Source: a virus
Virus record (IMG/VR): IMGVR_UViG_3300044608_001282
Coordinates: 1 to 30,202 of that record
Direction: 5' to 3' (one strand)
DNA length: 30,202 nt
Below are positions 4,486-27,771 of the stretch, one piece after another (position 1 is the stretch's first letter; each line of letters starts with the position of its first letter). The position numbers and the translations under genes were made by a program. The notes below the pieces were generated by a model. It saw only the letters and a list, made by a program, of their open reading frames with translations. It ran no database searches and had not been told where the DNA came from.

Positions 4486-4773
4486 TTAATAAGTGCCTGC
4501 TGTAAAATCTACTGGCACCCACGAGGTGCCGTTGTATTGGTAAATTTGGTTGGCGGTCGGTGCGGTTGCCGAAACGGTCTTGCCGCGAATGCCGGTAACT
4601 GTTGCAACGGTTCCACCGCCGCTTGTTGTCAACGAGAGATCGCCGGTGACGCTGGTCAACGATCCGGGCGGACCTTGTGGACCTTCCGGTCCCTGCGGGC
4701 CTTGCAGCCCGGGGACGCCTGTAAGAAGAGTGACCACTAGAGGGCCACAGAGTGTGTTGCAGCTCATGGTCAA
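4486..4773 (-). CDS. Short collagen-like tail protein, 95 aa
   Basis: Residues about 19-37 form six consecutive G-x-y triplets (GVP GLQ GPQ GPE GPQ GPP), a collagen-type triple helix that trimerises phage fibres. After a beta-rich link comes the module IRGKTVSATAPTANQ...YNGTSWVP shared with the 494-residue fibre. The protein is thus a small trimeric connector or fibre tip built from parts also used by its neighbours. The start overlaps the preceding stop by ATGA. The N terminus (SCNTLCGPLVVTLLTGVPG) is moderately hydrophobic but short and is probably not a secretion signal in this context. Confidence 0.75.
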   Translation of the reverse strand: MTMSCNTLCGPLVVTLLTGVPGLQGPQGPEGPQGPPGSLTSVTGDLSLTTSGGGTVATVTGIRGKTVSATAPTANQIYQYNGTSWVPVDFTAGTY

Positions 4774-17701: not shown

Positions 17702-18227
17702 TTAGTTTGAGAAGCTCCAACCGACTGCGAAGTTTTGGCTGGATTTCCGTTTCGGTCAGTCCAGCCAATTGCCCCGGTAGATCGTTGACCAGCGCGTCAA
17801 TTTCCGCGCACCAAGTTGCCACCACGCGGATCGTCTCCTCCACCACCTGTTCCACTGGCACCAGTCGCTTTTCGTCCTCGGCAATCTTGATGTCCAGCCG
17901 CCGCACTTCGCGTTCGAGCTTTTGCTTTTTGACGCCGTTGATGTCGCTAGGACTTGCCTGTTGCGCTTTGGAGTCGCGCCACTTCTGAATGCCTTCGATG
18001 GTTGTCCACGGCAGTCCAGCCTTTGCCATTGCCCGCTTCCACCGCAATACGCCGGGCCGACTCAGCCCAAAATGCGCGGCGACCTGCTCCAGCGTCAAAT
18101 CTGGCAGCGTGCCCGCCTCGTATGCGGCTACCATTGCCTGCTCTGCGCGGCTGATGGTCTTGCCTGCTTTGAGCTTGGCTAGGATGTTTTTGACCTGAGC
18201 CTTTGAAACTTGTTCGGTGAGGCTCAT
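17661..18227 (-). CDS. Terminase small subunit / DNA-packaging HTH protein, 188 aa
   Basis: A helix-turn-helix is visible in LTLEQVAAHFGLSRPGVLRW (about residues 39-58), followed by a basic linker, a coiled-coil-like helix (KKQKLEREVRRLDIKIAEDE) and a C-terminal helical region. This is the organisation of Nu1-type small terminase subunits, which bind the packaging site and assemble into a ring. It lies directly upstream of the large subunit with a short overlap and overlaps the methyltransferase stop by ATGA. The DNA target is unknown. The two-residue-rich start MSLTEQVSKAQVKNILAKL precedes the HTH. Confidence 0.82.
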   Translation of the reverse strand: MSLTEQVSKAQVKNILAKLKAGKTISRAEQAMVAAYEAGTLPDLTLEQVAAHFGLSRPGVLRWKRAMAKAGLPWTTIEGIQKWRDSKAQQASPSDINGVKKQKLEREVRRLDIKIAEDEKRLVPVEQVVEETIRVVATWCAEIDALVNDLPGQLAGLTETEIQPKLRSRLELLKLNARASFEHYPASS

Positions 18228-19450
18228 TTTGCAGCGGCCATCTCGTTAAATGTCTTGCCGGTCTCCGCGTGCATGGCACTTTTGCCGGTAAAGTCTTGCC
18301 AACGCTTTATGATTACATCCACAGAAGCAGGAGTAATTTCCATTGTGTGTGATTTTGCTCCTACAATTTCGCACCCAATTAAAGTGCTTCCACTACCCCC
18401 GAATAAATCTAAGTAGGAACTTCCTCCTACACCTCTAAATATGGCTTCAATCCATTTCATTGGTTTTGAATGAGCGTGCCCACCTCGTTCGGCTGTTGTG
18501 GGAAATGCTTCAACCGTTCGCAAATGCACTGCGCCGTTCAATGGCTTATATTCACAATCACCCCTAGAGTTTGTGACTGTTTTGGATTCTCTTTTTTTCC
18601 CATCCTTGATGATTGCCTCATCAAAATTCCATGCAGGATCATCGCCAAATATTCCGCACGCTTTATGTCTGGCAAGTGGTCTGTTTGGTGTATACCAAGA
18701 CGTCACATTATCCCAAACAAGCTCGTACAAAGGGGCCCACCCAAATTCCATTGCGGTTTTTGATGCAATGGCAAATCGCTTAAAATCCCAGAACGAAATC
18801 AATTTTGCTCCCTGTTTTTGTGGAAGCATTGCCGTTGAATACAGTTCCTCAATTTCATAGGGAGGATCAAACACTAAGCGATCCCATTCGTTTCCCGCCA
18901 ATAACAACGTCACAGCGTCAGTGCTCGTAGCGTCTCCGCACATTAGCCGATGTCGTCCCAGCGTCCAAACATCTCCTAGGGCTGTCACAGGGTCTTCCGG
19001 CACCTCTGGCACTTCGTCAGGGTCGGTGTTTCCTTCAATCACCTCCACAGACATCAGTGCTTTGAGTTCCTCTTCACTAAAACCCGTCAGTTCCAAATCA
19101 AATCCGGCCTCGTCCAGTTCCTGTAGTTCCAGCTTTAGAAACTCGTCATCCCATCCAGCGTTTAGTGCCAGCTTGTTGTCTGCAATAACATACGCCCGTT
19201 TTTGCGCATCAGTTAAGTGCCCAAGTCGAATGCACGGCACTTGCTCAACCCCAATTTTGCGAGCCGCGAGCACGCGGCCATGCCCTGCGATGATGTCGTT
19301 TTCAGTTCCAATTAACACCGGGTTGGTGAATCCAAACTCCCTGATGCTGGCAGCAATCTGCGCAACCTGCTCATCTGAGTGCGTGCGAGAATTGCGTGCG
19401 TAGGGAATTAACAAGTCAATGCTGACTTGCTCTAGTTTTGGCGCTGCCAT
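18224..19450 (-). CDS. ParB-like domain fused to a beta-class DNA methyltransferase, 408 aa
   Basis: N-terminal ParB/sulfiredoxin-type domain: IDLLIPYARNSR, then IIAGHGRVLAARKIGVEQVP (about 53-72). A methyltransferase core follows with DPPY at 195-198 and the SAM-binding FGGSGS at 350-355. DPPY comes before FxGxG, the beta-class order, so N6-adenine or N4-cytosine methylation is likely. Such ParB-methyltransferase fusions are widespread in phages, where they probably mask sites against host restriction. No partner nuclease is adjacent. It is the first gene of the late operon and starts 6 bases from a possible -10 box. Its DNA between about 18300 and 18900 looks more A/T-rich than flanking genes. 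Confidence 0.85.
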   Translation of the reverse strand: MAAPKLEQVSIDLLIPYARNSRTHSDEQVAQIAASIREFGFTNPVLIGTENDIIAGHGRVLAARKIGVEQVPCIRLGHLTDAQKRAYVIADNKLALNAGWDDEFLKLELQELDEAGFDLELTGFSEEELKALMSVEVIEGNTDPDEVPEVPEDPVTALGDVWTLGRHRLMCGDATSTDAVTLLLAGNEWDRLVFDPPYEIEELYSTAMLPQKQGAKLISFWDFKRFAIASKTAMEFGWAPLYELVWDNVTSWYTPNRPLARHKACGIFGDDPAWNFDEAIIKDGKKRESKTVTNSRGDCEYKPLNGAVHLRTVEAFPTTAERGGHAHSKPMKWIEAIFRGVGGSSYLDLFGGSGSTLIGCEIVGAKSHTMEITPASVDVIIKRWQDFTGKSAMHAETGKTFNEMAAAK

Positions 19451-20202: not shown

Positions 20203-20715
20203 GTGAATTTACATGACACAATTTTTATTTTTACACATTATAATCCTTACAAAAAATTTAAACAACTAAGACCTCTGTCCTACCTAGAGTTGCTCAAAGA
20301 TCGCTTAAAAGGAAGATGGGAAAATAAACCTGAGCTGGCTCAAAAATATGTAGACGACAGAAAAAAGTTTGAGGCTACTTTGGGCAAGGAATTGCTTGAA
20401 GCAGGACTTCCATATGACGCTGAGAAATCTTTTCTTTACGGTGCTGTAGATGGTCACGAGAGATTTGGTCAGCCCGGAGCATATCAGCATTTGGCTAACA
20501 TGCCTAATCTCGATAAGACTTTTTTTACAATTAATGGTTTAGACGATAAAGACCATATAAAGCGAGGAAAAGAAGGGCTGCTCAACGCTATAAAGCTCTG
20601 GAAAGAAAATCAGAACAACCTTAAGGAAACTGAATATATGGGCATGATTATTCGCCCGAGAGTCGACATCATGACCCAAGAAACTGTGATTCCATACTTG
20701 GTAAAAAAAATTTAA
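20203..20715 (+). CDS. Plus-strand hypothetical protein, 170 aa, A/T-rich moron candidate
   Basis: This is the only substantial gene on the plus strand. The GTG at 20203 is the only upstream start before an in-frame TAA at 20188-20190. The protein begins MNLHDTIFIFTHYNPYKKFK, is rich in Lys, Glu, Tyr and Asn, and includes LGKELLEAGLPYDAEKSFLY and AVDGHERFGQPGAYQHLAN. No membrane segment, Cys motif or catalytic signature is recognised. Its base composition is clearly A/T-richer than the flanking genes. It faces the early genes tail to tail, and its TAA (20713-20715) overlaps the minus-strand TAA (20712-20714). The strand, composition and own leader suggest horizontal acquisition; an exclusion or anti-defence role is only inferred. 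Confidence 0.75.
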   Translation: MNLHDTIFIFTHYNPYKKFKQLRPLSYLELLKDRLKGRWENKPELAQKYVDDRKKFEATLGKELLEAGLPYDAEKSFLYGAVDGHERFGQPGAYQHLANMPNLDKTFFTINGLDDKDHIKRGKEGLLNAIKLWKENQNNLKETEYMGMIIRPRVDIMTQETVIPYLVKKI

Positions 20716-21411: not shown

Positions 21412-21990
21412 TTAGAAAAAATCCTCAAAACTTTGCTCGGGAATTGTCGAGTCAGTTTGCGGTTCTTTTGAGCCGCTGCTGCGCCTCAAGCGCGAGCAAG
21501 CGGGCTCGGCTTTTTCCTTCTCTACTACTCCCGCTGCCGCTTGAGGCGGCGCGGAGTAGTTGTTCTCTTTCTCTATTAAGCGACCCTGTGAGGGTTTCAC
21601 GCGGTGACCCTGTGAGGGTTTCACGAGCTCACCCTGTGAGGGTGTGCCATGACCCTGTGAGGGTTGGCAAATTGAGAGCAGGCAAAAGCTATTTCGGGTC
21701 GCTCTCCGGCTTCCATTTGCGCCCGAAAAAATGCGCACCAGCCCGGCTTTTGCAAGCACCGGCAAGCACCTCGCAACGGTATTTTTTGACGCCCCAATAT
21801 GGTCGGCTAGCTCCTCGTACGAGGCCGAAAAACGGCGTTTATGGTCAGCACCAGCAGCACTCTGAAAGTGCGTGAGTGCGTGGTAAACGGCGTAATGGTT
21901 GGGCCCGTATCGGCCCGCAATTTTGGCAGCCTCGCGGTGCTGCCATGCAAACGGCCCCTCGTCTCGCGGGTTCTCGGATCGTGGTTTCAT
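21412..21990 (-). CDS. Winged-helix replication initiator-like protein with internal origin, 192 aa
   Basis: The N-terminal domain carries a helix-turn-helix of winged type: FSASYEELADHIGASKNTVA, then CLPVLAKAGLVRIFSGANGS (about 54-90). The pattern is that of helix-turn-helix proteins such as lambda O or DnaD-like initiators. Residues about 113-138 contain the linker PSQG four times, each coded by the same 13-base palindrome (see 21583-21664). The C terminus is acidic and ends STIPEQSFEDFF, possibly a helicase-binding tail. The start overlaps the helicase stop by ATGA. Initiator plus helicase plus internal iterons together support an origin here; function is inferred. Confidence 0.78.
   Translation of the reverse strand: MKPRSENPRDEGPFAWQHREAAKIAGRYGPNHYAVYHALTHFQSAAGADHKRRFSASYEELADHIGASKNTVARCLPVLAKAGLVRIFSGANGSRRATRNSFCLLSICQPSQGHGTPSQGELVKPSQGHRVKPSQGRLIEKENNYSAPPQAAAGVVEKEKAEPACSRLRRSSGSKEPQTDSTIPEQSFEDFF
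21583..21664. repeat. Four palindromic iterons, candidate replication origin
   Basis: ACCCTGTGAGGGT occurs four times at 21583-21595, 21607-21619, 21631-21643 and 21652-21664 (spacings 24, 24 and 21 bases). Each copy is a perfect 5-bp inverted repeat around GTG. Copies 1 and 2 also share TTTCAC after the repeat. They lie inside the initiator gene, coding PSQG. Just beyond, at 21561-21582, the DNA is A/T-rich (TGTTCTCTTTCTCTATTAAG), a possible unwinding element. This copies the layout of the lambda origin within gene O. Identical wobble bases in all four copies argue for DNA-level selection. Confidence 0.75.
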
Positions 21991-23324
21991 TTTCGTTTTT
22001 TCGGTTCTTCTGGCGGCTCTGGCTTGTCACACTGCTGCCAGATCATCCCCTCCTTTTGCGGATTGAGACTGTGCCGAATGTAGATTTGCGCTGTCGGCCC
22101 GCCCTCCCATTTTCCCATCCCGGCACGCAATCGCCGCTTGGTTGCGGTCAACGAGCATGTGGGTGGTTGCCCTGGCTCGGTCTCCATTCGTTGCAAAGTC
22201 ACCACCTCGCGTGCCCAGTTGGTCAGCGCAGACGATCCGAACCCAGCGTAGGCCAAATCCGAGTCCGTGCGTGCCGTGCCTTCTCGCGGTTTTGGCAGGT
22301 GGTGGATCAGGACCAGCAGCACTCCCGTTTTGCTGCTGATACGGTTTAACCCGTTACAGAACTCAGTCACGACTTTCTGATCCGAGATGTCGTCCCCGAG
22401 GTAGCACATCAGCGGGTCAATCCATGCCACATCGGGCCTGTGCCGCACCACCAGTGCCTCGAGCACCCGCAAAAACTCGGCTCCGCTGTGGATATTGTCG
22501 CGGTAAAACACCAGCCTTTCATTCAATACTTGCTTTTCGTGTTCACCGCAAAGTTTGCCGCCGTATTTGCAAATCACCGATTGCAATATTTCGGCTTGAT
22601 CCCCGATATCGTTTTCGGCCTGTAAAATAAGGCTTTTGAGCGGTTTTACAGGCTTAATACCGAAAGTCAGATTTTCCGCAAAAGTCCCTAGGCGCTCAAT
22701 ACCGTGCAGCGCCCAGCCAATCGCGAGTTGCATGGTTAGCGAGCTTTTGCCGATACCGGACTGAGCGTTAATTAACAATGATCCGCCTTTGCAAAGCCAG
22801 CGATTGCCTATCAGGTTATTTCTATCGCACTCTGTATTATAGATCAGCAGGTCATTAAAGGTACTTTGTACTATAGAACCAAGACCTTGCTCGGCACCGG
22901 CAACGCTAACGGCATTGCCGAGTTCTGTCACTATGTCGCCGGTCGGGACGCCCTCGGAGATCGCCTTTGCCGCCTCGGTGAGTTGCCGCAGCAATCTGCG
23001 CCGCCGGGATGCCTCAAGCACCATTTCGCACCAGCTCGGGAGCGGCGCAAGGCTTGGCATCCCCGTAGCGAGGTCGGTCAGCAGCGGATAAGAAACGCCC
23101 TTGCTCGCCAGCCTATGCGCAAGCGCAATCGGGTCGAGACTGTCACCGGCATCGGCTGCAGACTGGATGCCTGCAAAGATAGTTGCGTATGTCGGGTTGA
23201 AAAAGTCGCCACTTGTCAACCCGGATGCGACAACCGCAGGAAATGCGGTATGCGGCGCAAACAAGAGACAACCCAGCACCGCCCGCTCGGCCTGTTCGGC
23301 CTGCGGGATCTGTTGAGTGCTCAT
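21987..23324 (-). CDS. Replicative helicase: DnaB N-terminal-like domain plus RepA-like ATPase, 445 aa
   Basis: Residues 1-120 look like a DnaB N-terminal domain (MSTQQIPQAEQAERAVLGCL with the helical tail). The RecA-type ATPase follows: Walker A AQSGIGKS at about 187-194 (Lys193), Walker B VAWIDP (Asp303) and a possible sensor motif LVLIHHLPKP near 335. The ATPase is closer to RepA/AAA_25-type helicases than to canonical DnaB, making a hybrid architecture. It should unwind DNA ahead of the replication fork. The gene precedes the initiator and no primase domain is visible, so a host primase is probably recruited. Start at ATG 23324 is 3 bases after the previous stop. Confidence 0.85.
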   Translation of the reverse strand: MSTQQIPQAEQAERAVLGCLLFAPHTAFPAVVASGLTSGDFFNPTYATIFAGIQSAADAGDSLDPIALAHRLASKGVSYPLLTDLATGMPSLAPLPSWCEMVLEASRRRRLLRQLTEAAKAISEGVPTGDIVTELGNAVSVAGAEQGLGSIVQSTFNDLLIYNTECDRNNLIGNRWLCKGGSLLINAQSGIGKSSLTMQLAIGWALHGIERLGTFAENLTFGIKPVKPLKSLILQAENDIGDQAEILQSVICKYGGKLCGEHEKQVLNERLVFYRDNIHSGAEFLRVLEALVVRHRPDVAWIDPLMCYLGDDISDQKVVTEFCNGLNRISSKTGVLLVLIHHLPKPREGTARTDSDLAYAGFGSSALTNWAREVVTLQRMETEPGQPPTCSLTATKRRLRAGMGKWEGGPTAQIYIRHSLNPQKEGMIWQQCDKPEPPEEPKKRK

Positions 23325-27481: not shown

Positions 27482-27504
27482 TTGTTCAGTTCGTTGTTGT
27501 GTCT

Positions 27505-27558
27505 CTGACGGCCTCGTCAGCACCCGCCTTACGGGTGGACGCCCCCCGGAGGGGGCGT
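27505..27558. promoter_or_regulatory. Three abutting perfect hairpins in the leader of the 58-residue gene
   Basis: Three stems follow each other with almost no gap: CTGACG/CGTCAG (27505-27510 and 27515-27520), CACCCG/CGGGTG (27521-27526 and 27532-27537) and ACGCCCCC/GGGGGCGT (27539-27546 and 27551-27558, loop CGGA). The last lies about 7 bases after the stop at 27565. No T tract follows on the minus strand; the plus strand has only TTT. This is either a structured 5' leader, an RNA processing site or a small noncoding RNA. Confidence 0.65.
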
Positions 27559-27564
27559 TTCGGC

Positions 27565-27771
27565 CTAGAGATTGTGTTGAATCACTCGCCAACCGCTGCC
27601 CAACAAATCGAGCGCCAAATTTTCCGCGCGCTTGGGGCTGATGATTTCGGAATAGAGTGTAGTGTTATTGAGGGTCTCTTCGACCACTACCAGATCAGGG
27701 TATGCCCAGCTGTCACTGAGAGTGATGGTGGAGGTGATGTTGTTGCGTTCGATGGAGAGCTTCGTTGTCAT
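27565..27771 (-). CDS. Small hypothetical protein, 68 aa
   Basis: From ATG 27771 (the in-frame TTG at 27792 is a weaker start): MTTKLSIERNNITSTITLSD, then WAYPDLVVVEETLNNTTLYS and a helix (PKRAENLALDLLGSGWRVIQ) ending HNL. It appears to be a small alpha/beta protein without cysteines. It follows the 57-residue basic gene by 32 bases. No family is recognised. It precedes the triple-hairpin leader of the next gene. Confidence 0.62.
   Translation of the reverse strand: MTTKLSIERNNITSTITLSDSWAYPDLVVVEETLNNTTLYSEIISPKRAENLALDLLGSGWRVIQHNL

Follow-up and report, generated by a model that had tools for sequence, protein, structure and literature searches.

A candidate lambda-O-type replication origin within a phage initiator gene and the apparent exchange of its helix-plus-iteron cassette

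The O protein of phage lambda is a founding model of replication initiation, and in phage P22 genes 18 and 12 are an initiator and the phage's own DnaB-type helicase. As determined from the lambda ori sequence, the iterons are spaced 20, 24 and 23, with ATCCCTCAAAACGAGGGA as the first, and are themselves imperfect palindromes; the same sequence contains 41 nt that are rich in A/T (78%), as well as a palindrome of 28 bp. O dimers bind the lambda iterons, each of them an inverted repeat (PMC5043065, PMC7466680), and P22 genes 18/12 are named in PMC3349717. In the PLE satellites of Vibrio cholerae, the RepA domains covary with the origin iterons and cognate pairs are required (PMC8263062).

Here we describe a comparable locus in a 30,202-nucleotide virus record, analysed over its whole length (the window). 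On the basis of sequence comparison, we propose a lambda-O-type in-gene origin that would be bound by initiator dimers and whose helix-plus-iteron cassette appears to be exchanged among phages, and we put the probability of this reading at roughly 0.85.

The initiator gene and the elements of the candidate origin

The putative initiator gene (21412–21990, minus strand, 192 residues) begins within a 4-base overlap with the end of a helicase gene (21987–23324, minus strand), which is DnaB-like by Pfam (DnaB N-terminal and AAA_25). This confirms an earlier sequence-only reading, which had placed a winged-helix gene next to the replicative helicase. The protein consists of an N-terminal winged helix-turn-helix domain (residues ~15–100) and a tail that is predicted to be disordered and whose codons contain the candidate origin; in the AlphaFold2 model, built from an alignment of only 24 sequences, residues 108–192 have pLDDT values mostly below 50 and no predicted elements. 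The C-terminus is an acidic-aromatic tip, SFEDFF (21412–21432, minus strand), and several initiator relatives end in EDFF, EDFD or EDFS. The C-terminal tips of SSB proteins loosely resemble such sequences.

Other features of the window include a type II hammerhead ribozyme (27503–27565, minus strand; Rfam RF02276, 43.1 bits against a gathering score of 37), a ParB-like N-terminal domain (TIGR00180) joined to what by eye is an apparent DNA methyltransferase (18224–19450, minus strand), and a probable tail or fibre reading frame with a short collagen-like run of Gly-X-Y (4486–4773, minus strand). A 170-residue reading frame at 20203–20715 (plus strand) lies on the strand opposite to its neighbours, has lower GC content and no family match, and may be a recent insertion.

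Within the initiator gene, ACCCTGTGAGGGT occurs in four exact copies starting at 21583, 21607, 21631 and 21652, at intervals of 24, 24 and 21. Counted in gene order, exact motif search and the reading frame place iteron 1 at 21652–21664, iteron 2 at 21631–21643, iteron 3 at 21607–21619 and iteron 4 at 21583–21595. Exact search found zero further copies in the record, and allowing up to two mismatches yielded none beyond the four (shuffled mean 0.43); copies of the motif outside the gene are absent or near chance. The repeats are thus genuine, identical and limited to this gene. The motif had been called a perfect palindrome; instead, its 5-bp arms flank a non-symmetric 3-bp centre (5-3-5), which makes it an interrupted palindrome. 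GC skew around 21.6 kb, suggested as a check, displays no clear switch and is unusable as an origin signal.

For comparison, related genes were collected from scans of viral contigs, giving 47 genes including that of the window, 42 of them distinct, with 170 sites or units. No relatives of the initiator were found in annotated phages, and none of the initiator or the helicase in bacterial genomes. Every related gene has its repeat units at the same place; they number three to five (five in L064 and L075/L076), and usually there are four, spaced 21, 24 and 24.

Beyond the iterons in gene direction lies an A/T-rich, purine-skewed tract of 19 nt (21561–21579), a candidate unwinding element, in close agreement with the ~21561–21582 given before. 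Across the 42 genes, mean A+T content is 71% in the 15 nt that come directly after the last unit, and no other bin of the region is as high. The tract is followed by HP1, a 37-bp imperfect palindrome (21524–21560) whose distance downstream is near-constant among relatives. All 41 sequences retain its seven outermost pairs through compensatory, two-sided changes with zero one-sided ones; the eighth pair (scored at columns 28/50) fails in 12. HP1 was also considered as an RNA element and rejected: Rfam gave no match at HP1, and because the outer-stem changes are two-sided Watson–Crick replacements and lack one-sided (G-U) intermediates, it suits DNA better than RNA. As an alternative to selection, template-switch repair of palindromes could also yield this pattern. 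A second hairpin, HP2 (21470–21507), is weaker but likewise covarying. The loops of HP1 and HP2 are complementary (CCTCAAG/CTTGAGG) in the window and in many relatives, which may reflect a loop–loop contact or a shared motif.

Palindromic, dimer-type sites in the gene of a winged-helix protein could also be repressor sites by which the protein controls its own operon, with no origin involved. The fold itself is compatible with such an autoregulatory operator, and Foldseek searches with the predicted model returned only generic winged-helix proteins, MarR-like repressors among them, none with E below 0.001. However, the sites lie deep in the gene, ~330 bp past its start, and a promoter scan of both strands near them found no promoter-like sequence. 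A regular array of three to five sites, followed by an A/T tract and a palindrome, is likewise not what an operator would predict. Furthermore, all 24 relatives scanned match phrog_678 ('replication initiation O-like'; best E 1.1e-9), the best E value among relatives for the replication-initiation family phrog_270 is 6e-14, and a helicase gene lies directly upstream of the initiator in 42 of 42 loci. We therefore regard an operator as improbable and favour an in-gene origin.

Covariation of recognition helix and half-site

The 42 genes fall into seven recognition-helix types, as defined by residues 69–70 (the XX of S-XX-T) and 73–77, and each type is paired one-to-one with its own half-site: KN with ACCCT, QR with CGCC, RG-K with GTNCA, RG-R with GGTC, RA with GTNTC, TK with GGACT and ER with TGNC. 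In the window, residues 69–74 read KNTVAR and are among those that covary with the sites. The most informative residues on site type are 77, 73, 69 and 70. These covarying residues fall on the predicted recognition helix: AlphaFold2 places residues 69–81 (codons at 21748–21786, minus strand), also singled out by mutual information and Mantel tests, in the third helix of the winged-helix domain, and the block 61–80 has a pLDDT of ~93. All three types with Arg69 carry G at −7, and both types with Arg70 carry a G at −5 together with a C at −3; from these shared bases we infer hints of a recognition code. No description of residue-level covariation between helix and iterons in phage in-gene origins was found in the literature searched, which covered only a minority of subscription journals and not the classic studies of lambdoid specificity.

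In Mantel tests, iteron distance correlates with helix distance (r 0.89; partial 0.86 given the rest of the domain), whereas iterons and the rest of the domain, given the helix, are uncorrelated (partial −0.06). As helix and iterons are only ~100 bp apart, linkage will inflate this association, and the two might covary simply as neighbours on one recombining segment, without recognition. The junctions of the mosaics along swap pairs, often located outside both helix and iterons, are in line with this explanation. In contrast, site type is followed much more closely by the helix (partial 0.83) than by the intervening DNA (0.27), and the 60 nt after the sites show an r of just 0.14. The same helix/site pairing also recurs on different backbones, as in L014/L015 compared with the window. 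Linkage by itself is thus highly unlikely to account for the pairing, and recognition of the iterons by the helix is the reading that we retain.

Site type is decoupled from the adjoining helicase. Iteron distance and helicase distance are uncorrelated (r 0.02), and the helicase tree requires 18 site-type changes against a shuffled mean of 18.2; this test was run on distinct genes, so that the prior removal of identical copies slightly favours dispersion. Where branches are supported, a switch of helix is accompanied by one of site in all nine independent KN pairs and in all nine informative, independent RG pairs (p 0.004 for each type). Sister phages do not differ in type significantly beyond chance, the commonest type undergoing 13 changes against 11.6 in shuffled data. 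Individual pairs illustrate the decoupling: the helicases of L008 and L028 are 98% identical and their types differ, and the nearest helicase relative of the window, L018 (92%), is of another type, whereas L007, at 59%, has the type of the window. Between the window and L018, identity is 92% over residues 1–22, 40% in the helix, 52% in the iterons and 100% in HP1. L065 and L049 are more than 90% identical except in the helix (60%), residues 81–107 (80%) and the iterons (60%). From these comparisons, the helix-plus-iteron cassette appears to be exchanged among related phages in at least seven matched versions.

Constraint on the iteron DNA

All four copies in the window are read in frame as CCC TCA CAG GGT, encoding PSQG, and the sequence-only reading was right that they agree at wobble positions as well. 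With the peptide fixed and codons resampled, an exact 13-mer arises with p ~0.001, and hence all four with p ~1.6e-12. Bases 3, 4 and 6 positions away from the centre are complementary between the arms in 91–96% of the 170 units. The symmetry score peaks at unit position 9 with 0.856, compared with less than 0.4 at every other centre and with 0.494 ± 0.014 under codon resampling.

The RG-K type separates DNA from peptide most clearly. GTNCA-N5-TGNAC is present in 69 of 69 sites (GTNCA in 138 of 138 half-sites) across ~20 different hexapeptides, among them STPHGR, STQFGR, STPDER, SPRGGR and STRGEL. Wobble positions are found among the invariant bases and non-wobble ones among the variable central bases, and the motif survives in 0.1% of codon-resampled units compared with 100% of those observed. 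In L013, one PSQG has changed to PCGG and the site is still near-palindromic (ACCCTGTGGGGGT). A pattern in which relatives keep PSQG with varied codons had been named as evidence against an origin; the relatives display the opposite, with palindrome arms kept down to the wobble bases and peptides altered. The comparison indicates that selection is acting on the iteron DNA and not merely on the peptide. A repeated linker peptide whose DNA identity stems from recent duplication, although the units keep the reading frame and a repeated peptide is encoded in every type, was rejected as untenable on the codon-resampling evidence, given how widely peptides vary within types and that the L013 substitution leaves the near-palindrome in place.

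Proposed mechanism and comparison with described systems

In the mechanism that we propose, a dimer of the winged-helix domain would bind each of the four palindromic iterons, with one recognition helix per half-site, and the array of bound dimers would strain and open the adjoining A/T-rich tract. The DnaB-like helicase that the phage itself encodes just upstream could then be loaded at the opened tract. The 37-bp palindrome downstream may serve as a third origin element, in strand folding, priming or protein binding. Recognition helix and iterons would form a single specificity cassette, swapped between related phages by recombination, and sister phages with near-identical helicases can therefore have origins that probably do not cross-react. 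In this initiator family nature seems to have swapped helix and binding site at residue and base resolution, which makes recognition rules and origin orthogonality directly testable. A more far-reaching scenario is tentative and, taken as a whole, doubtful: a replicon-typing system with at least seven mutually orthogonal origin specificities in one phage family, exchanged so frequently that type is unrelated to the adjoining helicase gene. Selection against having an origin type in common with others, whether co-infecting phages, satellites or decoy origins, would maintain the diversity, and residues 69–77 would spell out a simple amino-acid-to-base code.

The closest counterpart is lambda O with ori-lambda, together with the O proteins of the lambdoid relatives P27 and 933W. 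In both systems the origin, here a candidate, lies within the initiator gene, the DNA-binding domain is N-terminal, and four inverted-repeat iterons (spaced 20, 24 and 23 in lambda, and 21, 24 and 24 here) are followed on their 3′ side by an A/T-rich tract and then a palindrome (28 bp in lambda, 37 bp here). Three sequence features of a lambda-O-type origin are present: repeats in the initiator gene, their inverted-repeat form and an A/T tract on their 3′ side, short at 19 nt. With DNA sites conserved and this order of elements, the comparison strongly supports the lambda-O-like in-gene origin first suggested from the sequence. The accompanying statement that the binding logic differs from that of lambda does not hold, because the layout and the proposed dimer logic match those of lambda, where O dimers likewise bind inverted-repeat iterons. 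Differences are found elsewhere: the outer span of the half-sites is 13 bp here and 17 bp in lambda, the A/T tract is 19 nt compared with ~40 bp, the 24-sequence model predicts no counterpart of the folded C-terminal domain that binds the P helicase loader in lambda, the partner would be a DnaB-like helicase of the phage, from an upstream gene, in place of a P loader from a downstream one, and at least seven specificity types occur on closely related backbones. Direct profile comparison revealed no homology to lambda O (hhalign probability 0.1%, E 0.41, with a thin profile of Neff 1.9), and the lambda O sequence matched no chain in the PDB copy searched. Membership of the lambda O protein family is thus only partly indicated, in that O-like PHROG families match and lambda O itself does not align.

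P22 resembles the present locus in pairing an O-like initiator with a phage-encoded helicase, but, compared by description, the gene order is reversed, with the helicase first here. Geminivirus Rep, an HUH-type protein, offers an analogy only, and a looser one than PLE. Its iterons and specificity residues differ together between close relatives (PMC12548392, PMC10653810), but replication is by rolling circle and the sites lie outside the gene. PLE RepA/ori shares with the present locus the covariation of the initiator DNA-binding domain with semi-palindromic iterons and the exchange of both as one module. Unlike the locus described here, however, the PLE ori is intergenic, two modules have been described, the RepA_N domain belongs to another family and the element is a satellite. 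Alongside these satellites, the present initiators would be a phage case of origin specificity being the very trait that is exchanged.
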